From positions 1 to 57,508 of the forward strand of contig JAUMVX010000011.1 of assembly GCA_030529945.1 (NCBI GenBank): 57,508 bases of DNA, given 5' to 3'. The notes beneath the pieces are model-generated. The model saw only the letters and a program-made list of their open reading frames with translations. It did no database searches and was not told where the DNA came from. The stretch comes from Bacteroidia bacterium (GTDB lineage Bacteria > Bacteroidota > Bacteroidia > Bacteroidales > UBA932). Of the stretch, positions 24,463 through 34,415 are shown piece after piece. Position numbers and translations under genes: made by a program. Every line of letters begins with the position of its first letter. Within the stretch, counting starts at the first letter, position 1.

Positions 24463-25968
24463 CTATACGACCTCTTCGATGGAGTCGATTCCGTCCCGGT
24501 TCAGGGCCACGCGGAAGCGCTTGAATTCCGTGCTCAGGTTCTTGTTCCCCCGGCCGAGGTCGCCCTTGCCGGACTCGTCGTAATTCATCTGCAGCACGAT
24601 GTTCATATAGTATATCTTGTCGCAGGCCACGGTTTTCAGGGTTCCGTCCTCGGCGATCGAGGTCACGTTCACCTTCGGGTTGTCCATCTTCTGGAGAAAA
24701 CTGTTCACGTTCAGCCGGATGATGTCGTTTATGCCGCTGCTGTCATAATCAGAAAGCCGGCTCAGCGCCTTGCGGTCTATATGCACCTGCTTGCGGTAGA
24801 GTATCACGCGGTCATCGGAGATTCTTTTTTCCACCTGAAGCAGCCTCTTGTGGTAGCGCACGAACTTGACCTCCTCCGGCACCTTGGAGTCCGGGATGAA
24901 GTCCATTCCTTCCTTTATGGAGCCGATGATTTCGTCCTTCACGCGGATCTTGGCCTTGTTGTCGAAGAAGCGGCTGCCTATCTGATGGGCGAAATAGTAG
25001 CGGGACAGCTCCTTGATGCGGTCCTTTATCATATAGCTGATGACCAGTATGATGAAGAAGGGGAGGGTGAAGTTTCCGAATTTCTGCTGGAAAGTGAAGC
25101 TCACGATCGTGGCGAACATCATCGCCATTCCGGCCGCGATGCTGAAGTAGAGCTGCTCCACGAGCGCCCCGTCCTTTTTCTTCGGGATGTCCGTGAAAAG
25201 GTCGCTCTCCACGTATTTTTTCAGGGCCCCGAAACGGAAGAGCATAACCCTGTTATGCATCGGATCGTCAGAGGACAGGACGGAGTAGTCCATCTTCTGC
25301 CTGTACGCATTCTCTTCGCGTATCAGGGAGAGAAGCCCCTCTGCGGCGGCGGAGTACTCCCTCTCTCCCTTCCCCGTCAGGAAGCCGATGATCTTCACGC
25401 TGTGCGACTGCACTATAGTGCTTATGAAATCGTCCCCGAAGTACCAGCAGCTCATCGTCTCGTCGCTCACGCCCGGGGAGTTTATGATGTTGCGGGCGGC
25501 GCGGTACTCCGAGAGTATTTTCCGGCAGCTGTCCACGTATTGGCTGCAAAGCCAGCCTATGTCTTCCTTGAGCACGCGCTCCGAGCAGATGTGGCGGAAC
25601 TCCTCGCGGCTCGCGCTCTTGGTGATGGCGGCGAACATCTTTATCTGGTATTCGTACTCGGCCGTCATCGTGCGCGTCGGGTTCAGGGCGAGATTCTCGA
25701 AGGAGCGGCGCAGCTTCAGGAGCGGGGTCGCGCTGCCTCCGGCTATCTCGCGGAGCAGGAAACGCGGAGTGATGAGCCTCACGTTCGACTTCACGTCCTG
25801 ATAGAAGTCGGAGTTGGAGTAGCTGTCGGAGCTGATGCCGAGGCTCTTGGGTACAAATATCCACATATACACGGAGAAATCGTTGCGGCGCAGCTTCCTC
25901 CGTGTCACGAACCCCATCTTGAACTCGATGGAGAAACGGTCGTGAATCTTCGTGATGATGTCTATCAT
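24463..25968 (-). CDS. Unknown membrane protein with two central helices, last gene of the phosphate-like operon
   Basis: 501 aa when started at the ATG at 25968, which overlaps the preceding TGA as ATGA; the nine extra upstream codons are discarded. Residues about 270-315 form two adjacent hydrophobic helices (LYFSIAAGMAMMFATIVSF and LPFFIILVISYMI). Large N- and C-terminal soluble domains lie on either side, probably both cytoplasmic. The C-terminal part (DKIYYMNIVLQMNY, FRVALNRDGIDSIEEV) looks beta-rich. I do not recognise the family. Translational coupling to the SLC13 transporter gene suggests a joint role in transport or its regulation. Confidence 0.75.
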   Translation of the reverse strand: MIDIITKIHDRFSIEFKMGFVTRRKLRRNDFSVYMWIFVPKSLGISSDSYSNSDFYQDVKSNVRLITPRFLLREIAGGSATPLLKLRRSFENLALNPTRTMTAEYEYQIKMFAAITKSASREEFRHICSERVLKEDIGWLCSQYVDSCRKILSEYRAARNIINSPGVSDETMSCWYFGDDFISTIVQSHSVKIIGFLTGKGEREYSAAAEGLLSLIREENAYRQKMDYSVLSSDDPMHNRVMLFRFGALKKYVESDLFTDIPKKKDGALVEQLYFSIAAGMAMMFATIVSFTFQQKFGNFTLPFFIILVISYMIKDRIKELSRYYFAHQIGSRFFDNKAKIRVKDEIIGSIKEGMDFIPDSKVPEEVKFVRYHKRLLQVEKRISDDRVILYRKQVHIDRKALSRLSDYDSSGINDIIRLNVNSFLQKMDNPKVNVTSIAEDGTLKTVACDKIYYMNIVLQMNYDESGKGDLGRGNKNLSTEFKRFRVALNRDGIDSIEEVV

Positions 25969-27491
25969 AGCAGTCCCGGGGTGTATCCCAGCCACTTCAG
26001 TACCGTCTCGCCCCAGACGAGTATGAGCAGCCAGCAGAGTGTCATCATAGTGATGCCGAAGCGGAACGTGTCGCTCCAGCTGTATTGGTTGGTGTTATAG
26101 AGCAGCGCGGCGGGCTTGCTGTTGAACGGCAGGACATAGACGTGCTCTATGAGCATCGCCACAGGGAAGGACAGACTGAGCTGCGGCAGGCCGAACTTCT
26201 GTTCCACCCCGAGGGCTATGGGCACGAATATCAGGGTCCTCATAGTCTTCGACTCGAAGATGAGTCCGCTGAACATCATCATAAAGGTGAGTATGACGTA
26301 AAGCAGAGCGAACGGGGCGTCGTCGCTGATGCCGAGACTGTTGAAGAACACGTCCACAAGTGTCCCCGGGAGGCTGGTCGCGTCGAGTCCGGCTCCCAGA
26401 GTATATGCTCCGGCGGAGAAGAGCATCAGGTGCCAGGGGATGTCCACATCGTTCCATTTCACCACTCCGATTCCCGGCATAAGGGCGATGACCGCGCCCA
26501 GAAATGCCACTGTGGTGGCGTCCAGGCCGTGGAGCTTGTCCGTGGACCAGAGTATCAGCACTCCGAGAAAGATGGCTACCGCCTTGTATTCCTCGCCCGT
26601 CATCCTGCCCATTGCGCTGAGTTCGCTCCGCAGCCTTTCCAGACCGCCTTCGATCTGAGGGACCTGCTCCTCCTTTTTCATCGGGAAGATGAGCTTGGTG
26701 GCGACTATCCAGCCCAGAAGGGCCATTATTATCGTGAGCGGGAAGCAGGCGACGAACCAGTCGCTGTATCCTATGGTCGAGCCGTAGGCCCCCATAAAGA
26801 GGGAGATGGCCAGAAGATGTGCTCCGGAGCCGGTCAGGAAGCCGGTGGCGGTGATGTTTATTTCGAAAAGGTTCTGCAGGACCAGATTTCGTCCGAAATT
26901 GTTGCGCTTCCCGTCAGATGCCCCGTATATGGCGCAGATGACCATAAAGATGGGCAGAAGGATGGTGGCCTTGGCTGTCGTGGCGGAGATGAAGGCCGAA
27001 AGGACCAGGTTTATGATGATGAAACTGAAGAAGATGCCTTGGGCACTGTGTCCGAAGCGGAGCACGAACCAGAGCGCGAATCTTTTCGCCACCCGGGTCT
27101 TCACCAGCATCGAGGCCAGCACGAAGGAAAGTATGTTCAGCCACATCACCGGATGACCGAGCTGCGCGAAGGCCGTCTTCTGCGGCACCACTTCGGTGAG
27201 CACGATCGCGAGTATGATCACCAGCGAGGTGAGGTAGTTCGGGATGGCTTCCGTCATCCAGAGCACCAGTCCCGCGATGAAAATGGCGAGCATAGACTTT
27301 TCGGCCGGAGTCTGGAGGAACGGAACCTCCAGAATCCAGTTGAAAAGCACGAAGAGAATTATGGCGAGAGGACCGCCCAGTCGGGCCATCCATTTCTCGA
27401 AGCCGGATTTCTCCATCTTCGGGAGTTTCTCGATTCTGTAATTGTTCATATCCAGCGGGTCATAGCCCCGGACTGTGCGCTCCTCAGTCAT
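25965..27491 (-). CDS. SLC13/DASS-family anion:Na+ symporter
   Basis: 508 aa with about 11-12 membrane helices. DASS hallmarks are the ATTAKATILLPIFMVICAIYG block, VLALTEAIP-like LWMTEAIPNYLTSL, and a C-terminal LPFNSKPAALLYNTNQYSW. DASS carriers take up dicarboxylates, citrate, sulfate or phosphate, and yeast Pho87/Pho90/Pho91 are phosphate-transporting members. In this operon, beside DUF47, an OprO/P-type porin and CYTH proteins, phosphate is the most economical guess, but the substrate is not shown by sequence. It is coupled to the downstream gene by ATGA. Confidence 0.85.
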   Translation of the reverse strand: MTEERTVRGYDPLDMNNYRIEKLPKMEKSGFEKWMARLGGPLAIILFVLFNWILEVPFLQTPAEKSMLAIFIAGLVLWMTEAIPNYLTSLVIILAIVLTEVVPQKTAFAQLGHPVMWLNILSFVLASMLVKTRVAKRFALWFVLRFGHSAQGIFFSFIIINLVLSAFISATTAKATILLPIFMVICAIYGASDGKRNNFGRNLVLQNLFEINITATGFLTGSGAHLLAISLFMGAYGSTIGYSDWFVACFPLTIIMALLGWIVATKLIFPMKKEEQVPQIEGGLERLRSELSAMGRMTGEEYKAVAIFLGVLILWSTDKLHGLDATTVAFLGAVIALMPGIGVVKWNDVDIPWHLMLFSAGAYTLGAGLDATSLPGTLVDVFFNSLGISDDAPFALLYVILTFMMMFSGLIFESKTMRTLIFVPIALGVEQKFGLPQLSLSFPVAMLIEHVYVLPFNSKPAALLYNTNQYSWSDTFRFGITMMTLCWLLILVWGETVLKWLGYTPGLL

Positions 27492-27503: not shown

Positions 27504-27977
27504 TTATTTCCAGTTCTTGTAAGGGTTCTTCATAAGCATCGAGTTGTAGTAGCGGACGTCGCCCGTCACTTCCTCACCGAGCCACTTCGGCCTGTCGAAG
27601 GCCTCGTCCTCGCTTCCGAGTTCCACTTCTGCCACGGTCAGACCGTCATTGTCTCCGTAGAACTCGTCCACTTCGAAGGTGTGCTCTCCGGCTTTCACCA
27701 GATAGCGGGTCTTGTCGATGACTCCCGGCTCGCAGATCTTCAGAAGCTCCTTAACCTCGTCCACAGGGATTTCCTTCTCCCACTCGAAACGGCTTGCGCC
27801 GCTCTCGGAACCGATTCCCTTGATGGTGATGAAGCCCTTGTCACCCTTTACTCTCACGCGCACGGTGCGCTCCGGAACGGAGCTGAGATAGCCCTGTGTG
27901 ATGCGTGTAGCCTTGAAAGCGTCCTGCTTGAAGCAGTCGCATTTCACCAGAAACTTTCTTTCTATTTCCTGTGCCAT
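27504..27977 (-). CDS. CYTH-domain (triphosphate tunnel) protein
   Basis: 157 aa. The diagnostic ExExK is present as EIERK at residues 4-8 (EIERKFLV). Tunnel-strand pairs follow: TVRVRVKGDKGFITIKG, FEWEKEIPVDE, KTRYLVKAGEHTFEVDEF and LTVAEVELGSEDE. Short bacterial CYTH proteins hydrolyse inorganic triphosphate (tripolyphosphatase), while other members are class IV adenylate cyclases or thiamine triphosphatases. The operon context favours inorganic (poly)phosphate, by inference. It starts 3 nt after the CYTH-like gene upstream. Confidence 0.88.
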   Translation of the reverse strand: MAQEIERKFLVKCDCFKQDAFKATRITQGYLSSVPERTVRVRVKGDKGFITIKGIGSESGASRFEWEKEIPVDEVKELLKICEPGVIDKTRYLVKAGEHTFEVDEFYGDNDGLTVAEVELGSEDEAFDRPKWLGEEVTGDVRYYNSMLMKNPYKNWK

Positions 27978-27980
27978 AGC

Positions 27981-28625
27981 TTATTCGTTTGCGAGCGGTT
28001 TATCCGACATTCCGATGACGCGTTTGATGGCCTGGAGATAGTTTATGTTCTCCACACCTTCGAGGTGACAGTCGGCGACGGTCTTCTTTATATCTTCTAT
28101 TTCAGTGGATTCGGAGTTGATGGTGACTACTTTCGCGCCGTTGATGAGGACGTTGCCCACCTCGCAGATGGTGTCGTTCACCATATAGCCGAATCTCTGC
28201 TTGTGCACTCTCACCGCAGCCAGATCCGGATTCGCCTTCACCATAGCGATGAACTCGTCGAGGGTGTAGCTGTCCTTGTCCAGCTTGGGCATCTCCACCA
28301 TAAAGGCCGGGAACACCTCTTTCTCGAGAACCTCGCGTGAAATCGGGAATTCGCCCTTCATAAGCGGGTTCCACTGCTCGAAACCGTCCACGCTGCGCAC
28401 GAAGGTCTTGATGTCCATCTTGCCGTTACGGATTTTGGTGTTGTTGATGTCGTTTGCCTTGGAGACGATGTAGATTTCGTCGCTTTCCCTCTCCCAGACC
28501 TTCTCCGGTACAGGGACGGAAAGACGTGCCATCCTCTTGTGAGCTTCGCAGAAACACTGACCGAAGCTGCGGAATTCGAAGCGCGGCTTGGACGCTTCAC
28601 CGATTTTCATTTCTTCTTTTGCCAT
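27981..28625 (-). CDS. Unknown protein, possibly a divergent CYTH-like partner
   Basis: 214 aa, soluble, no signal peptide. Its order of predicted strands parallels the adjacent CYTH protein: a first strand RFEFRSF, then DEIYIVS, KIRNGKMDIKTF, RVHKQRFGYMV, TICEVGNVLING and KVVTINSESTE. However, the ExExK motif is not conserved. It could be a non-catalytic or substrate-altered tunnel-fold protein forming a complex with its neighbour. That is my pattern reading, not an established family. Start spacing of 3-10 nt to both neighbours shows tight operon membership. Confidence 0.7.
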   Translation of the reverse strand: MAKEEMKIGEASKPRFEFRSFGQCFCEAHKRMARLSVPVPEKVWERESDEIYIVSKANDINNTKIRNGKMDIKTFVRSVDGFEQWNPLMKGEFPISREVLEKEVFPAFMVEMPKLDKDSYTLDEFIAMVKANPDLAAVRVHKQRFGYMVNDTICEVGNVLINGAKVVTINSESTEIEDIKKTVADCHLEGVENINYLQAIKRVIGMSDKPLANE

Positions 28626-28635
28626 TGCTTAAAAA

Positions 28636-29463
28636 TTATTTTTCAAGCCCTTCCACAGGGTTTGCCGTATTGTTTTCATTTGCTGTTCCCGGAGTCGCCG
28701 CGCAGTGGTACCAGCTTCCGTTTCCGTCCGGAACACGGGCGTAGGATGCCGCCGCCTTGGTCACGCACTCCACGAGGTTGAAGACGTCGATGCGGTTCCC
28801 CTTAGGGTCGCGGAGCTCGATCTTCACAGCCTTTTTGGCCGACAGGCCGGAATGGAAGATATAGTCCGCGCTCTGCTCGGGATGGTCCGCCTGCACGTCC
28901 TCGCTGTAGAGCAGAATGAACTCGCCGGGCTTGATGACGGCTGACGGGGCGGTCCAGACAGCCTCTTCCACCTTGTCGTCCTTGATGATGTTCACGCCCT
29001 TGATGCGGATTTCGTCATTGCCCTTGTTGTAGAGCTCGATGAACTTGTCGTTGCCGTTCAGCTCGTTCAGTACCAGCCCGCTGTAGTCGATCGGGACTTC
29101 ACCCACGGTGTAGGAGGCTTCCGCGGAGACCGCGCTGCGGCTGCCGGTGCTGGCTTCCACGCGGTATGTCACCTTGGTCCCCTCGGCGGCTCCCGGGATG
29201 GTGCCCGAGTACACGCCCTTGGAAACGCTGCTCATTGCGGCGGTGGCTTCCGCCGCGCCGCCCAGCTTGTATTTAAGCTCCACCTTGGCGATGTCCACTA
29301 GTGAGGCTACATTGGCCGTCACGGTGACGGCGTCGTCTTCTGTATAGGCGACGGTGTTCTGCAGTCCGGAGATGGTGACTCCGTCATATATCTTGTCTTC
29401 CACGCAGGAGATGCCGAGCGCGAAAGTGAGCGCAAGCGCCGCGAATAATGCTGTCTTTTTCAT
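28636..29463 (-). CDS. Lamin-tail-domain (LTD) lipoprotein
   Basis: 275 aa from the ATG at 29463 (an ATG four codons upstream is also possible). The lipoprotein signal is KKTALFAALALTFALGISC, followed by an Ig-like beta domain (about 30-115). An LTD domain follows: GLVLNELNGNDKFIELYNKG, IRIKGVNIIKDDK, VIKPGEFILLYSED, AVKIELRDPKGNRIDVF, SYARVPDGNGSWY. Bacterial LTDs are surface or secreted beta-sandwich modules, often near nucleases or phosphatases, and may bind ligands or anchor partners. Being between the porin and CYTH genes, it is probably exported to the outer membrane as part of the same system. Confidence 0.82.
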   Translation of the reverse strand: MKKTALFAALALTFALGISCVEDKIYDGVTISGLQNTVAYTEDDAVTVTANVASLVDIAKVELKYKLGGAAEATAAMSSVSKGVYSGTIPGAAEGTKVTYRVEASTGSRSAVSAEASYTVGEVPIDYSGLVLNELNGNDKFIELYNKGNDEIRIKGVNIIKDDKVEEAVWTAPSAVIKPGEFILLYSEDVQADHPEQSADYIFHSGLSAKKAVKIELRDPKGNRIDVFNLVECVTKAAASYARVPDGNGSWYHCAATPGTANENNTANPVEGLEK

Positions 29464-29476
29464 ATTCTGTGTCATT

Positions 29477-30874
29477 TTAGAATGCTACCTGGAAACGCAT
29501 CGATATCATATGGTAGTCCACGCCGGCCTTGCCGTCGCTCTCCACCACCTTGGTGTAGTCCTTGGTCGGCTTGCCGGAGGCGTCGTGGCCCACGTAGAGC
29601 TTGCCCTTGCCGTTCGCGTAGCGGTCGTTGTTGTTATACTGATAGTTGATGACGAACTTGATGTTCTTCATAGGGTAGAAGTTGATTCCGAAGCTGTACG
29701 CCTCCGCGCAGCCTCCGAAGTAGTCGGTGGTGTTGAAGTCGCAGAGCTCGTAGCGGAAGGCGAGTTCCACGTCTCCCCAGCTGCGTCCCGGAGTTATGCG
29801 GGTAGGCTTCGCTCCGTCGCTGTCGTAGTTCTGTCTGCCGCCGAAGAGCAGGTAGGAAGCCTGGGCGTACCAGCCTTTCGCCCACTGGGTGCCGAGCGGG
29901 TTCACATCCTTGTCGAGGAAGGCTCCGCGGGTGATGTAGGCCGTCTCATAGCGAAGGCCCCTGTGGAAGCCGGCGAGTTCCGCCGTCCAGAGCAGTTCGT
30001 GGTCCAGTCCGTTTATGGCATCGGTGTCGAGATACTTCTTGCGGTTTATGCTCGTGGTGTTGCGGCTGCTGTAGCGGGCCACTTTGTAGCCGTCGGTGGA
30101 TGCGGCGCTCGGGTTGCGGTACGAAACGGCTCCGCCGATGTGCAGGCCGGTGTTCGGGTTCTTGTAGAGCGGACGGATGGCGATCTTTCCGGTATAGGCG
30201 AGACCCACGTTGCGGCCGTAGTCCTTGTTGTTGTCATTCTTCGCGGTAGCCTCTTCGCTGCCCTTGAGTTCGGGTCCGAATACTCCGGCCGAAGCCCAGA
30301 ACCAGTTCTTCGACCAGGTGGCTCCGAGACCCAGATGTCTGGAAGGGGCCAGGGCGGTGACCATAGGCCGCTCCATAAACATAAGGTAGCGCGAAGAAGT
30401 GTTGCGCTGCAGGGAGAAGTTCTCCTTGAAGTTACCTGCCTTGATTTCGAGTCCCGGCACTCCGGTGTAGGAGAGGATGGCGTCCTTGAGTTCGCAGACT
30501 CCGTCGGCCCAGTCGGTGTCGAGTTCCGCGTACCAGTTCCTGTCGATCTGTGTCTTCACAGCGAAGCGGGCGCGGCGGATGGACATTCCGTTGCCGATGT
30601 GACTGCTGTTCTCGCTGCCGTCCAGCTTTGCGTCCGTGAAGTCCGGACCGCCGAAGAATACGGCGGCGTCACCCTGCACGCGCAGGTCGAACCACATCTT
30701 GTAGCCGATGGACGGGGCGTCCAGAACCATAATGCCGTCCTGGACCTTGAACTGGCCGTCAGTGGAGACCACTTCCTGGCCATACTGGTTCACGGCCGTC
30801 TCCTGCTTGTTTTCCTGCGCCGCGAGCGAGGTCGTCAGGAGAGCCGTAGCGATAAATAGAAAAGTTTTTTTCAT
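29477..30874 (-). CDS. OprO/OprP-type (phosphate-selective) porin
   Basis: 465 aa from the ATG at 30874; the eight upstream codons are dropped because the signal peptide MKKTFLFIATALLTTSLAAQ starts here. It ends in ...MISMRFQVAF, with the terminal Phe of outer-membrane barrels. Family features are IRRARFAVKTQIDRNWYAEL, LEIKAGNFKENFSLQRNTS and MFMERPMVTALAPSRHLG, then alternating aromatic beta strands. Pseudomonas OprP/OprO channels select phosphate and polyphosphate through an arginine ladder. Whether that ladder is kept here cannot be judged by eye. It is immediately downstream of the PiT-like/LuxR gene. Confidence 0.87.
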   Translation of the reverse strand: MKKTFLFIATALLTTSLAAQENKQETAVNQYGQEVVSTDGQFKVQDGIMVLDAPSIGYKMWFDLRVQGDAAVFFGGPDFTDAKLDGSENSSHIGNGMSIRRARFAVKTQIDRNWYAELDTDWADGVCELKDAILSYTGVPGLEIKAGNFKENFSLQRNTSSRYLMFMERPMVTALAPSRHLGLGATWSKNWFWASAGVFGPELKGSEEATAKNDNNKDYGRNVGLAYTGKIAIRPLYKNPNTGLHIGGAVSYRNPSAASTDGYKVARYSSRNTTSINRKKYLDTDAINGLDHELLWTAELAGFHRGLRYETAYITRGAFLDKDVNPLGTQWAKGWYAQASYLLFGGRQNYDSDGAKPTRITPGRSWGDVELAFRYELCDFNTTDYFGGCAEAYSFGINFYPMKNIKFVINYQYNNNDRYANGKGKLYVGHDASGKPTKDYTKVVESDGKAGVDYHMISMRFQVAF

Positions 30875-30898
30875 TACTGCAATTGTGTTGGTTATCAT

Positions 30899-32479
30899 TT
30901 ATATGCTTTTTATGAAATCTGTCAGACTCTGTTTCCGGTCCAGACCGAACTTGCTCCTGAGCCGGTGCCGGCATATCTCCGCGCTTTTCGGCGCTATGTT
31001 CATAAGGGCCGCGATATATTTAGTGGAGAAGCCGAGCCGCAGCAGCGTCGTGAGCCGGCGTTCTCCTCCGGTCAGCTGAGGGAACTTCTCCTGAAGCCTT
31101 ACCGTGAAGTCCTTGTGCAGCTGCTCGACCTGTGTATAGAACCGGTCTATCTCGTTGTCGAAATTCATCCTCAGACTCAGCTGCGCCGAAATCTCGTGCA
31201 GGGCCCTGTCCTTTTCCGCCGGGTCGGACAGAAGCCGCGCCTGCTTCACCATCCCGTTCAGCCGCCCGATGAACTCCTTCTGCTCGGTGATGTTCATCGC
31301 CACGCTCAGCAGTTCCTGCCTCTTCAGCTCCAGCTGGTTCCGCAGATGCTCGTTCTCTATGGTCATATTCTTGACTTCCAGACTGTTAAGCGTGTGCCTG
31401 TTCTCGTTAATCTGTTCCTCCTGATCTCTGAGCGCCTGCCCGGAATGGCGCGAGCGCGAGTAGAGAGTGTAGATGACAGTCCCCGACATAAGTGCCAGCA
31501 GAGCGACCGCAAGCACCATCACCCTCACCGGAGACAAGTTCCCCGCGCCGTAGATGAGCATAAGGGTCAGGCAGGTCAGGACTAGAGCGGTCAGCGGCAC
31601 GCCTATGCCGGAAAGCGCCAGCCTCGCGGCTTCAGCCCCGCTCATATACTCCTGTCTTTTCACTGCGGAGCAGCCTCCGAGCGCGGCGAAAGCCAGAAGT
31701 CCCGGGGACATCACCGTAGCTTTACAGCCCACGCACCCCGCCGCCGCATCGCTCGAAAACAGGGCGCAGACGACCGCTACCGAGCACACCGTAGCGAGAA
31801 TGACATCGTAGTTGAGGTCGAATTGCCTCTCGCCCAGACTCCCGATGCTCCGCCCGAGGAAGGGGAGAGCCGCAAGCGTTCCTGCCGCCAGAGCGAGCGC
31901 CACTCCGCTGCGTCCGTCCGCCGCGAGAGGAAAGCTGCCTCGGATGAGCGAAATGTTCGCTCCCGCGCATACGAGCATAAGAGCTGCCGCCACGCTCGTG
32001 CAGATGCCCAGATTCCTGACCAGGATGAGGCGGTGCTTCCGCGAATGTCTGCAGATGAGCGATATGGCCCGGCAAAGTAGAGCCGCGGTCAGGGCGGCGA
32101 GCGCCAGCGACACTATGGCTGCAAGCAGCCAATCTTTCACTCCTCCCGGGTCTCCGTTTCTGAAGAGGCTGTAGCCTGCTGCCGCGCCGGTAAATGCCCA
32201 CAGCGAAGGCCTGTATGCGGAGATGAGCCGTCCCGCCGCCACTGCTCCCAGTGCTCCGAGACAGATGATGGCTACCCCGGCGGCATCTATTCCGGCCGCC
32301 CCGGAGCCGCCCGCCGTCAGGAAACTGCCCGCGCAGATGAGAACAGGCACGGCTGGAATCAAGGCGCTGCGTCGTATCGCGCTGCAGTTCTGCACCGGAG
32401 CGAGTATGACGCTCAGGTCCGTGAAGCTGCACAGGCACATCATCACCGCAAGTGCGAGTATGGAAACTATGCCGTCCAT
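30899..32479 (-). CDS. Membrane transcription regulator: degenerate PiT-like domain fused to coiled coil and LuxR-type HTH
   Basis: 526 aa. Residues 1-340 hold about ten hydrophobic helices whose pattern follows PiT (PHO4) phosphate transporters twice over. DLSVILAPVQNCSAIRRSAL (21-40) corresponds to the first GANDVANA repeat, and CAGANISLIRGSFPLA (171-186) to the second. GRSIGSLGERQFDL (209-222) plus GCVGCKATVMSPGLL (248-262) corresponds to the GxxVxxxxG...PVSTTH segment. The transport residues (Asp of GAND, the PVSTTH loop) are not kept. Residues about 345-400 are a coiled coil, and 470-520 (LTGGERRLTTLLRLGF, YIAALMNIAPKSAEICRHRLRSK) are a GerE/LuxR-type helix-turn-helix. It starts 3 nt after DUF47, the normal PiT partner gene. 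I infer a phosphate sensor that binds DNA from the membrane. The HTH is secure; the PiT homology is my reading and needs a profile or structure test. Confidence 0.75.
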   Translation of the reverse strand: MDGIVSILALAVMMCLCSFTDLSVILAPVQNCSAIRRSALIPAVPVLICAGSFLTAGGSGAAGIDAAGVAIICLGALGAVAAGRLISAYRPSLWAFTGAAAGYSLFRNGDPGGVKDWLLAAIVSLALAALTAALLCRAISLICRHSRKHRLILVRNLGICTSVAAALMLVCAGANISLIRGSFPLAADGRSGVALALAAGTLAALPFLGRSIGSLGERQFDLNYDVILATVCSVAVVCALFSSDAAAGCVGCKATVMSPGLLAFAALGGCSAVKRQEYMSGAEAARLALSGIGVPLTALVLTCLTLMLIYGAGNLSPVRVMVLAVALLALMSGTVIYTLYSRSRHSGQALRDQEEQINENRHTLNSLEVKNMTIENEHLRNQLELKRQELLSVAMNITEQKEFIGRLNGMVKQARLLSDPAEKDRALHEISAQLSLRMNFDNEIDRFYTQVEQLHKDFTVRLQEKFPQLTGGERRLTTLLRLGFSTKYIAALMNIAPKSAEICRHRLRSKFGLDRKQSLTDFIKSI

Positions 32480-32482
32480 CTC

Positions 32483-33127
32483 CTAAAAGCTGTTTTTGAT
32501 AGCCATAACCGACAGCTGGTCAGCCACTTTAATGGCCGCGTGCGAGATTTCCTCTATGTGCAGGGCGAAATATCTGAGATGGAATTTTTCCGAGAGCTTA
32601 AGCTCGTTCATAGTGTGGAACACCGTCCTTTTCAGCGTCTTGGCCTGCTTGTCGGCTTCCTGTGCGTAGAAATAGACTCTGTGGCTCTTTTCCACGGTAA
32701 GGTCAGGGCTGCGGAAGTAGGATTTGGCCGCCGGGATGGCGCTCTCTACGGATTTCGTGGAGAGCTCGGTCAGTTTCAGATAGTCAGCATTGAGTGCGAC
32801 CGGGATGTACGGACGCTCTATCTCGAACTGGCAGAGGTTGTTGTCGATTTTCGTGATGATGTTCACTACTCTTTCGAGCAGTCTCATCACGTCTCCCCTC
32901 AGCCGCACGTAGGCCGACTGTCTGTAGAGGTCGCTCTCTATCTCCCTGAGCAGGATTTCCGCGTCGGACTTGATCCCGGACATAGTCTGAAGATTGTCGC
33001 TCAGCTGCGGAGTCTCCCCGTAGAGATAATTCTTCACTCCCTCCTTGAACACGAGCTGGGCCCTGTCGACTGCGTCGAAGAGCTTGTCCATATTCTCTAT
33101 GGTTCTGTTTATCTTCTTTGAAAACAT
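32483..33127 (-). CDS. DUF47 family (PhoU-like) phosphate-transport regulator
   Basis: 214 aa, all-helical. It resembles the DUF47/PhoU-like proteins encoded next to PiT transporters (opening FSKKINRTIENMDKLFDAV; LREIESDLYRQSAYVR; INNL-like ITKIDNNLCQFEIERP; FHLRYFALHIEEISHAAIKV). Such proteins are thought to bind metal clusters and modulate phosphate uptake. Here the following gene is not an ordinary PiT carrier but the PiT-like/LuxR fusion, so the partner of DUF47 is likely that regulator. It is the first gene of the operon. A -7 box lies 136 nt upstream and a small overlapping upstream frame is present. Confidence 0.85.
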   Translation of the reverse strand: MFSKKINRTIENMDKLFDAVDRAQLVFKEGVKNYLYGETPQLSDNLQTMSGIKSDAEILLREIESDLYRQSAYVRLRGDVMRLLERVVNIITKIDNNLCQFEIERPYIPVALNADYLKLTELSTKSVESAIPAAKSYFRSPDLTVEKSHRVYFYAQEADKQAKTLKRTVFHTMNELKLSEKFHLRYFALHIEEISHAAIKVADQLSVMAIKNSF

Positions 33128-33375: not shown

Positions 33376-33413
33376 TAAAAAAATGCAGTAAAGTATTTAT
33401 CGATACTTACTGC
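33376..33413 (-). terminator. Terminator downstream of aroE
   Basis: On the minus strand, GCAGTAAGTAT-(CGATAA)-ATACTTTACTGC forms an 11-bp stem with one bulge (33385-33413), followed by ATTTTTTTATT. It is 115 nt past the aroE stop and protects the next operon's promoter from read-through. Confidence 0.75.
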
Positions 33414-33527
33414 AAATATATAAGATATTTTGTAAAGTTCGGAACGTTTATTTTGCCGTGCGCGGAGAGCTTATTTTTTCATTTTATTAAAGGCTACTCA
33501 TCCGGCCCCTGCGGGAAGTTCGCGGTT

Positions 33528-34415
33528 TCAGAGAGACTGTCCCGCAGTCAGCGCCTCGATGTCCGGGGTGATTCCCGTCATTATTCCGTAACCGGAGATG
33601 GCCTGGCCGAGGAGCCAGCGGACGCCCGGAATGTACCTGACCCCGCAATCCTGCAGACGTGCGAGCCTCAGGCCCGTGAAGGCCGGATTCCTGTAGTTCG
33701 CTTCCAGAAGGATAAGCCCGCCTTCCTTTCTTTCGGGCCGGAAATCATCCAGACTGTCCAGAGCGGCGGGCAGAGTATAGATCAGAAAGTCCGCTTTCGC
33801 CGCAGCATCAGCAAACTCATCTGTCGAACCCGTTGTGAAGCCGTATTCAGGCAGGCCTTTCGCGAATGCCTCAGCCTTCTCCACACTCCTGTTCAGTATG
33901 GTGGTGCAGAAGCCAGCCTCTGCGGAGGCGACCGCCGCGGCCTTGCCGGCCCCGCCGCAGCCGACCACGACTGCGGACGGCCTGCGCCCGTATTTCTCTT
34001 CCAGACACTTGCGCAGGAACTGGTGGATTTTCTTGTGGGCGGAGGCTCCGAACTCGGCATAGAATTCGGCTATGATGCCCGGATACAGGGCTTCAGCTAT
34101 GCAGAGGATTACGCCCGAGAAATCGGAATTGTGACATTCTACCCCGTCCTTGGTGTGCAGCAGAATATTCGCCGCCCCGATAAGCAGGCAGGGACCCGAT
34201 ACGATGTCGGCCTTGCCGAATGCATCCTCCTTGAAAGGGGCGGTCACGTTCACTGCCTTGTACTCCCGCAGAAAGCGGAGGTAGGATTCCTCGAAAACCT
34301 TGCCTTCTATCAGGTCATAGGGAAAACGTCCGCTGTATGCTGTCCGGAACAGCTGCGGACTTGCGGAGTGTCCGATGGGGTCTCCGATCAGTCCGAAACG
34401 AGTAGAGTCTATCAT
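33528..34415 (-). CDS. aroE: Shikimate dehydrogenase
   Basis: 295 aa from the ATG at 34415. The longer frame to 34487 overlaps the upstream gene and adds non-family residues. It reduces 3-dehydroshikimate with NADPH in aromatic amino-acid synthesis. Substrate-site motifs are LIGDPIGHSASPQLF, NVTAPFKEDAF (catalytic Lys) and NSDFSG (Asp). The nucleotide loop is VVVGCGGAGKAAAVA followed by LNRSVEKA. The C-terminus has ISGYGIMTG, where the common form ends in a short amphipathic helix with Gln. The pathway sister aroK lies 4.4 kb away on the other strand. Confidence 0.9.
   Translation of the reverse strand: MIDSTRFGLIGDPIGHSASPQLFRTAYSGRFPYDLIEGKVFEESYLRFLREYKAVNVTAPFKEDAFGKADIVSGPCLLIGAANILLHTKDGVECHNSDFSGVILCIAEALYPGIIAEFYAEFGASAHKKIHQFLRKCLEEKYGRRPSAVVVGCGGAGKAAAVASAEAGFCTTILNRSVEKAEAFAKGLPEYGFTTGSTDEFADAAAKADFLIYTLPAALDSLDDFRPERKEGGLILLEANYRNPAFTGLRLARLQDCGVRYIPGVRWLLGQAISGYGIMTGITPDIEALTAGQSL

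Follow-up and report, generated by a model that had tools for sequence, protein, structure and literature searches.

The locus considered here raises the question of what becomes of a membrane transporter that has been joined to a DNA-binding domain, and in particular whether the product can be a receptor that no longer transports. To our knowledge, transporter-derived receptors are known in isolated cases, and the path leading from transporter to receptor is rarely visible. The gene at issue, dPiT-HTH, lies in a stretch of 57,508 nt from a Bacteroidia bacterium (contig JAUMVX010000011.1; ‘the window’ below is this whole analysed stretch), and the reading for which we argue, largely from comparison of sequences, is that it probably encodes a membrane-tethered one-component transcription factor descended from a PiT-HTH fusion, which would sense together with a neighbouring DUF47 protein and control its own operon. 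Among its relatives are intact fusions, whose PiT core keeps its signature residues, and decayed ones, whose core does not. The parts of the protein and of the operon are collected in Table 1.

Table 1. Features at the dPiT-HTH locus, in coordinates of the window
Feature	Position	Strand	Basis or remark
LTD (lamin-tail-domain) protein, lipoprotein by eye	28636..29475	(-)	PF00932 E 1.6e-11; synteny
Porin_O_P outer-membrane porin, abutting dPiT-HTH downstream	29477..30898	(-)	PF07396 E 1e-32; synteny
dPiT-HTH, 526 aa, ATG start	30899..32479	(-)	ORF; aligned to 21 intact fusions and 82 other decayed proteins
LuxR/GerE/NarL-type HTH, residues 461-526	30902..31099	(-)	PF00196 at 469-521; DevR chains in PDB
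Coiled-coil-like linker, residues 341-460	31100..31459	(-)	By eye
PiT-derived membrane domain, residues 1-340	31460..32479	(-)	Alignments, profile comparison
Extra hydrophobic segment past the PiT core, residues 323-337	31469..31513	(-)	Column-averaged hydropathy and charge
DUF47 / PhoU_div (PitR-type) partner	32483..33127	(-)	3 nt upstream of dPiT-HTH
Single divergent box copy AACTTTACAA, 1 mismatch, weak	33430..33439	(-)	Box known upstream in relatives

Residues 1-340 of the window protein are polytopic by hydropathy; the second Asn of both GANDxAN-type signatures is absent from them, as is the P-x-S-T motif, and D21 and N175 are kept. Hydropathy and charge averaged over the alignments place a hydrophobic segment after the PiT core, both here and at residues 375-392 of an intact relative (L042), with a K/R-rich stretch next, and this added segment would make the HTH cytoplasmic. 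For human PiT1 and PiT2, tag studies put the C termini outside and an older model puts them inside (available text of PMC3126765). The linker, coiled-coil-like as a preliminary description of this DNA had it, has a mean identity of 0.47 among decayed proteins. The GerE/LuxR-type HTH named in that description is borne out by the set as a whole, in that all 78 decayed proteins of the alignment used (A2, which excludes L054, L067 and L075; the window protein is included) match GerE at E ≤ 0.01, the window protein itself scoring 17.2 bits against PF00196 (E 0.0039), under the cut-off of 23.5. A weak match to NF053779, the BT3442 family (20.1 bits against a cut-off of 940), spans residues 320-521 only, likeness to such Bacteroidota coiled-coil and LuxR HTH proteins being confined to the C-terminal part.

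Descent of the membrane domain from PiT is less readily seen. Searched singly, the window protein has no match to PHO4 (Pfam), and to that extent the profile check put forward in the preliminary description came out negative; 33 of 78 decayed proteins do, however, match PHO4 singly at E ≤ 0.01. A profile of the 78 decayed proteins, with no intact one inside, has as its top PDB match among 177,635 sequences the entry 6L85 (‘Phosphate transporter’, E 1.5e-7), which we take to be TmPiT, and DevR HTHs rank next. In profile-profile comparison the membrane parts of decayed and intact proteins match with a probability of 99.7 (E 2.8e-26), as do those of the window clade (4 sequences) and the intact set with 97.2 (E 3.9e-11), SLC13 and Lgt controls staying under 0.5. 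Against canonical solo PiTs (7 sequences) the match is weak, with probability 11 for the decayed profile and 1.3 for the window clade, and against the ~757-aa PHO4 protein that the window's genome encodes separately the values are 0.3 and 1.4; kinship therefore runs via the intact-fusion subfamily and 6L85. Along the sequence, the PiT layout previously claimed for the second half holds in alignment with intact fusions, CAGANIS falling on SLGANNIAN, GRSIGSLGER on YSKKVMETIG and ATVMSPG on MVPVSSTQ. The first half, which had not been listed, aligns also, with TDLSV on NDAAN.

In a tree of the C-terminal part (121 rows) a branch nested within the intact fusions separates off the decayed set at SH-aLRT 84, a moderate support to be weighed against 3 misplaced rows among the 17 of the outgroup and against several long branches that meet. 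With intact orthologues in the same synteny and the profile comparison, this supports the earlier surmise of a converted transporter, and origin from PiT followed by decay appears well supported.

Both forms occur within one bacterial family. Of 149 family genomes sampled, 55 have any match, many to the common C-terminal coiled coil and HTH only, and 12 have the gene in this operon: a decayed form in ten, among them the window's genome, and an intact PiT in the other two (L042 in G111 and L043 in G012). The latter are fusions of 582-583 aa scoring 185 and 188 bits against PHO4 and 37 and 40 bits against GerE. Eight decayed orthologues were scanned for PHO4, four of which gave 42.7, 36.4, 26.7 and 23.1 bits and the others none at E ≤ 1, though for one of these four (L038) the genome search gave a sub-threshold 23.7 bits. 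In G066 a frame of 335 aa (L016) corresponds to residues 412-526 and may be a further member, truncated.

A contig search with the window protein alone as query found no relative; with an alignment as query it found 217, from which the best 80 by likeness to the window protein were kept, all of the decayed kind because of that ranking. MAGs titled as Bacteroidales, Bacteroidia or Rikenellaceae make up nearly all of these best 80 of 217; ruminant gut is the source of many, and a complete genome, that of Bacteroidales bacterium CF (CP006772.1), is among them. Intact loci were sought separately and ranked by likeness to an intact query, and since each set was ranked by its own query, intermediates may be missed; the rows of both sets are related, not independent. 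With an intact fusion as query, 87 of the 295 genomes of the order sample match at E ≤ 1e-20, over half via the C-terminal part alone, and same-length, full-length intact fusions from 19 were used, one more with an internal stop (L131) being excluded. Also dropped were L145, L147, L148 and L150-L156, lacking a full C-terminal part, and, as duplicates in the decayed set, L048, L061, L067, L080, L103, L112 and L124. Farther out, two of 247 genomes in the class sample match at E ≤ 1e-60, one frame of 629 aa (L157) being by eye a fusion and the other (L158) stopping after the PiT part, and the nine matches in the phylum sample of 247 cover the PiT part only; the C-terminal extensions of the two of these nine that were read (L159 and L160) have no HTH.

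Gene order in the window and at the two intact loci of the family is identical, DUF47 - X - Porin_O_P - LTD, with the present gene at X. DUF47 is immediately 5′ in 79 of 80 decayed loci with enough room, a mechanical ORF start overrunning it in the exception (L075), and in 19 of 20 intact loci, the twentieth (L142) having a 205-nt gap. Wherever room is full the porin is immediately 3′ (78/78 decayed, 2/2 intact), and if partial matches at short flanks count it is present in 18 of 21 intact loci, those with no match being L127, with almost no flank, L146, with a short flank, and L140, with none within 1488 nt. Of the 67 decayed loci with room for it, 63 have an LTD gene next in order. A hairpin at 33384-33414, in the window's promoter, looks like the terminator of the upstream gene, and the folding of this region barely exceeds that of shuffles (z -1.49, with 15 of 200 as good).

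What the core has lost was read from an alignment of 83 distinct decayed with 21 intact proteins, and in keeping with the preliminary description signature residues are lost: six positions present in 20 or 21 of the 21 intact fusions are kept in none of the 83, namely N24, Q55, Q100 and N187 (21/21 intact) and P95 and T98 (20/21), and S286 and Q288 (21/21) survive in one. N24 and N187 are parts of the two GAND-type signatures, and P95 and T98 belong to the P-x-S-T motif. The decayed set thus does not carry two GANDVANA-type signatures, though D/E21 and N183 remain. Position 21 is acidic in 81 of the 83 (D in 43, E in 38) and D in 20 of 21 intact, and by its place in the first signature it would, in our own correspondence, answer to D28 of human PiT2, reported as critical for transport (available text of PMC3126765). 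Other positions kept, again out of 83, are N183 (82), F262 (80), P322 (80), G296 (78), P283 (76) and H157 (74), and the decayed membrane part has conserved positions in D221 (77/83), F241 (80/83) and P295 (80/83). HTH positions conserved in at least 20 of 21 intact proteins are kept in 80-83 of the 83 decayed. The decayed protein has presumably lost transport.

Transport by the intact fusions themselves is no more than plausible, because their second PiT signature departs at L180 and N184, which stand at the places of H502 and D506, critical in human PiT2 (available text of PMC3126765). Their best NCBIfam transporter match, in 3 of 3 scanned, is the CysP sulfate permease model at 59-77 bits against a cut-off of 400, and because this is their best match, far under cut-off as it is, the original substrate could be another oxyanion; phosphate seems the most likely ligand.

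That the decayed gene is a pseudogene was considered and rejected, open reading frames being full-length (524-562 aa in 81 of 83, the two longer ones owing to mechanical ORF start) and dN/dS well below 1. Fifty-nine related pairs, which share members and do not include the window gene, gave 0.047-0.274 for residues 1-340, so that purifying selection acts on the membrane part; 58 of them gave 0.016-0.209 for the remaining residues, where the last pair was saturated. Decayed proteins share on average an identity of 0.28 in the membrane part and 0.77 in the HTH, as against 0.57 and 0.56, respectively, for intact ones. Conservation has shifted its weight away from the transporter and towards the DNA-binding part; since the two sets differ in taxonomic spread, the firmer contrast is the one seen inside each set.

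Against a receptor function for the membrane part it may be held that this part is now a mere anchor, the signal being read by DUF47, a PitR/PhoU-like protein, or by the coiled coil. The window's DUF47 protein has no Pfam match alone (TIGR00153 is weak, E 0.068), yet the neighbour had been called correctly, since orthologues in the same place match PF01865 in 5 of 5 relatives scanned (E 8e-13 to 6e-21) and the window protein is picked up at E 7e-83 when the profile is built from intact-linked DUF47s. We read it as belonging to the PitR group. In S. aureus, PitR, a PhoU-like protein linked to Pit, controls the two-component system PhoPR (available text of PMC13170248), and that precedent, with a DUF47 gene that is well conserved and adjoins in 79 of 80 loci, is what an anchor has in its favour. 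The membrane part is, however, of near-constant length with conserved positions of its own (D221, F241, P295), more than an anchor needs, and most decayed-linked DUF47s have altered acids from which intact-linked ones never depart. At position 159, D stands in 21 of 21 intact-linked and V in 66 of 82 decayed-linked proteins, the window's retaining D159, and position 196 is D in 21 of 21 as against K in 54 of 82. Because of these alterations a joint change of the pair, DUF47 and membrane partner changing together, is suggested, and we regard the anchor as unlikely, though it keeps a serious claim.

A second alternative turns on the region upstream of DUF47, where the decayed loci have a repeated box. 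Among 66 decayed loci differing pairwise at >40% of positions, 59 have CTCTACAA upstream of DUF47 (shuffles expect 0.4), at a density in the 250 nt upstream of 6.7 per kb as against 0.13 elsewhere in the same loci, and with 126 copies there on the coding strand versus 7. ACTCTACAW on the coding strand is found in 68 of 80 decayed upstreams (shuffle mean 0.35) and in 6 of 20 intact (0.15). Its commonest spacing is 11 bp (69 pairs), followed by 13 (22), 22 and 43 (20 each), 55 (18) and 33 (16). If the spacing must be exactly 11 bp and each copy may have one mismatch at most, tandem pairs occur upstream in 30 of 80 decayed loci but in 0 of 20 intact ones, for which reason the array is taken as a trait of the decayed branch. 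Over 12 whole genomes a tandem 21-mer (≤ 3 mismatches) has six matches, four of them upstream of this operon and each the sole one in its genome (G029, G114, G092 and G129); the remaining two are elsewhere with 3 mismatches each, and a reversed control also gave 2. The 21-mer is absent from six of the 12 genomes searched, the window's among them, and because the window has just one copy, with 1 mismatch, the box argument is weaker for it than for its relatives. A two-copy pattern with 2-4 nt between copies occurs in 18 of 149 family genomes, against 9 for the reversed control, and of four family matches with exactly 3 nt between, three are at this operon. No LuxR-type inverted repeats were found upstream of the decayed set, just A/T-rich words of low count. 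The case for the box as the DNA target of the HTH is circumstantial.

The same array could be a Bacteroidales Pho box, the operon being a target of PhoB and dPiT-HTH acting elsewhere or nowhere. PhoB boxes are 11-bp direct repeats, the very layout seen here. The absence of tandem 11-bp pairs upstream of all 20 intact fusions also fits, since the box is for that reason no constant companion of the HTH, and in B. fragilis PhoRB controls pst and a phosphate/sulphate permease (available text of PMC3547664). A general Pho box sits poorly, though, with the 21-mer being unique to this operon in the four genomes where the operon matched, with 20 stretches (45 kb) upstream of NptA, other PiT and Pst genes that have three single CTCTACAA and no array, and with the HTH being the most conserved part of the decayed protein. 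We judge control by PhoB, in place of dPiT-HTH, to be rather unlikely.

Whether the decayed protein may still transport, with changed substrate or coupling and the HTH as a side function, depends partly on what else in these genomes could move phosphate. Na_Pi_cotrans is present in 10 of 10 decayed-gene genomes (11 of 12 genomes overall), and another PHO4 protein passes cut-off in seven of the ten, none doing so in G129, G097 and G108. PstB passes cut-off in one of 12 genomes (G029) and PhoU in none, by models that pass in 13 and 12, respectively, of 14 control genomes. Sub-threshold PstB- or PhoU-like matches occur in most of the 12, those to PstB being other ATPase-like frames and those to PhoU mostly lying inside Na_Pi_cotrans frames; in G029 a 92-bit PhoU match adjoins its PstB. 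A direct sensor could fill this PstB/PhoU gap. Continued transport is favoured by purifying selection on the membrane part, by the retention of N183 (82 of 83) and of an acid at position 21 (81 of 83), by the three of ten genomes with no other PHO4 protein, and by the weak match of intact fusions to a sulfate permease model. It is countered by Na_Pi_cotrans in every decayed-gene genome, by N24, Q55, P95, T98, Q100 and N187 remaining in none of the 83 and S286 and Q288 in one, and by a membrane part that is the least conserved in the decayed set (0.28) and equal to the HTH in the intact (0.57, 0.56), and seems to us quite improbable. Scarcely credible, and rejected on synteny, profile comparison and PDB match, is a chance resemblance of an unrelated polytopic domain with a LuxR HTH, as in the Coriobacteriia 12-TM LuxRs: the window protein's want of a PHO4 match and the weak solo-PiT profile match (probability 11) are outweighed by the syntenic intact orthologues, by PHO4 matches in 33 of 78 decayed proteins and by 6L85 as the first PDB match.

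Parallels to a transporter-derived transcription factor can be drawn with several known systems. With PiT / SLC20 (PHO4; 6L85) there is membrane-domain homology by profile and the DUF47 neighbour, but the six intact-fusion positions are at 0/83 in the decayed set and an extra TM-like segment, coiled coil and HTH have been added. Closest in build are the Coriobacteriia LuxRs of 10-12 TM (DadR, CadR, HcdR), which likewise have a polytopic N-terminus and C-terminal LuxR HTH and regulate neighbouring genes, as proposed here (available text of PMC9734109). The main text of that paper does not use the word ‘transporter’ and calls the mechanism unclear, whereas here the membrane domain can be followed back, by way of intact relatives, to a named family of transporters. 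Closest in concept is the CbrA transceptor, where a transporter domain (SLC5) is likewise fused to a signalling output, which in that case is a histidine kinase of a two-component system (available text of PMC13022988 and PMC8871633); dPiT-HTH differs in itself carrying the DNA-binding domain and in the loss of transporter residues. Yeast Ssy1, also a receptor derived from a transporter family, is eukaryotic and works by proteolytic activation of a separate transcription factor (available text of PMC12958826). A traced path from intact transporter to transport-dead transcription factor is in neither the available text of PMC9734109 nor that of PMC13022988, and a search by title and abstract, limited to top-ranked results and with subscription papers mostly outside its coverage, found no PiT-HTH fusion.

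The ancestor proposed is a PiT-type oxyanion transporter already bearing a C-terminal coiled coil and LuxR-type HTH. As the sequences show, intact PiTs of Bacteroidales are joined to the HTH by the added hydrophobic segment and the coiled coil, the operon reading DUF47 - PiT-HTH - Porin_O_P, and in one lineage, without leaving that operon, the PiT core has lost residues which the intact fusions keep, with the protein staying full-length and the HTH being more conserved. A remnant site (the acid at 21 and N175 of GAN), the PhoU-like DUF47 or both would report oxyanion status, most likely that of phosphate, and a conformational or oligomeric change would travel through the coiled coil to the HTH. 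The HTH, predicted to bind DNA, would do so at the ACTCTACAW boxes upstream of DUF47 and so control the DUF47-dPiT-porin-LTD operon. Outer-membrane uptake might then follow phosphate status without Pst/PhoU, while NptA-type proteins (Na_Pi_cotrans), joined by a further PiT in genomes that have one, would carry out uptake itself. The ‘phosphate transceptor’ of the preliminary description would keep its sensor part, but the window protein looks receptor-only and the term in its strict sense would fit the intact fusions better. The larger proposition, on which we are evenly divided, is that this lineage built a PiT-LuxR transporter-transcription factor and later shed transport, so that a pseudo-transporter acts on its own uptake operon in replacement of Pst-PhoU-PhoR. 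If that is true, both ends of the path survive in living members, one intact and the other decayed, within the same operon of related genomes, with the decayed branch bearing its own repeated operator. The two ends would provide a concrete model for the origin of polytopic membrane LuxR regulators, and, for gut and rumen Bacteroidales, a candidate direct sensor of phosphate or another oxyanion.

When the relatives' DUF47 genes are compared, acids that are invariant in the DUF47 proteins linked to an intact PiT-HTH (the fusion of a full PHO4, or PiT, part to a LuxR-type HTH) are often found to be replaced in those linked to the decayed form. The window's own DUF47 matched no Pfam model at E <= 1. 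In a group of five loci (L038, L056, L062, L101 and L123), copies of the upstream box, CTCTACAA, fall within the DUF47 ORF as called mechanically, 20 nt in from its start, so that translation in this group may really begin at a later codon. Also upstream of the window's operon is an inverted repeat that looks like the terminator of the gene ending at 33528; when compared with shuffled sequences, the folding of the stretch containing it is barely above that of the shuffles.

Features of the window considered here
Feature	Position	Strand
510-aa protein, middle part hydrophobic by eye	24463-25995	-
Na_sulph_symp-type transporter gene	25965-27491	
Gene for 157-aa protein	27504-27977	
214-aa protein	27981-28625	-
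DUF47	32483-33127	-
Inverted repeat TGCAGTAAGTAT...AATACTTTACTGCA, then T-rich stretch, beyond gene ending at 33528	33384-33414	-

There is a second PHO4 protein in the window's genome, ~757 aa in length (L001, G000:C90:17709-19091), and its long C-terminal extension looks PhoU-like by eye; with Pfam, PHO4 alone was reported for it and no other model. Among relatives, an intact-type PiT-HTH gene, L131 (G215:C20:6498-8222), has an internal TAA within its PiT part, which splits it into two ORFs, one matching intact relatives over their residues 1-229 and the other over 233-579. A different type of variant is L140 (G399:C4:27893-29620), where an intact PiT-HTH is followed, after 21 nt, by a gene related to the one for the window's 157-aa protein instead of by the porin gene.

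Downstream of the window's operon, the gene for the 510-aa protein, which had no Pfam match at E <= 0.001, overlaps the end of the transporter gene. In most of the decayed loci whose sequence extends far enough, the 214-aa protein, also with no Pfam matches, follows on in the operon's gene cluster.
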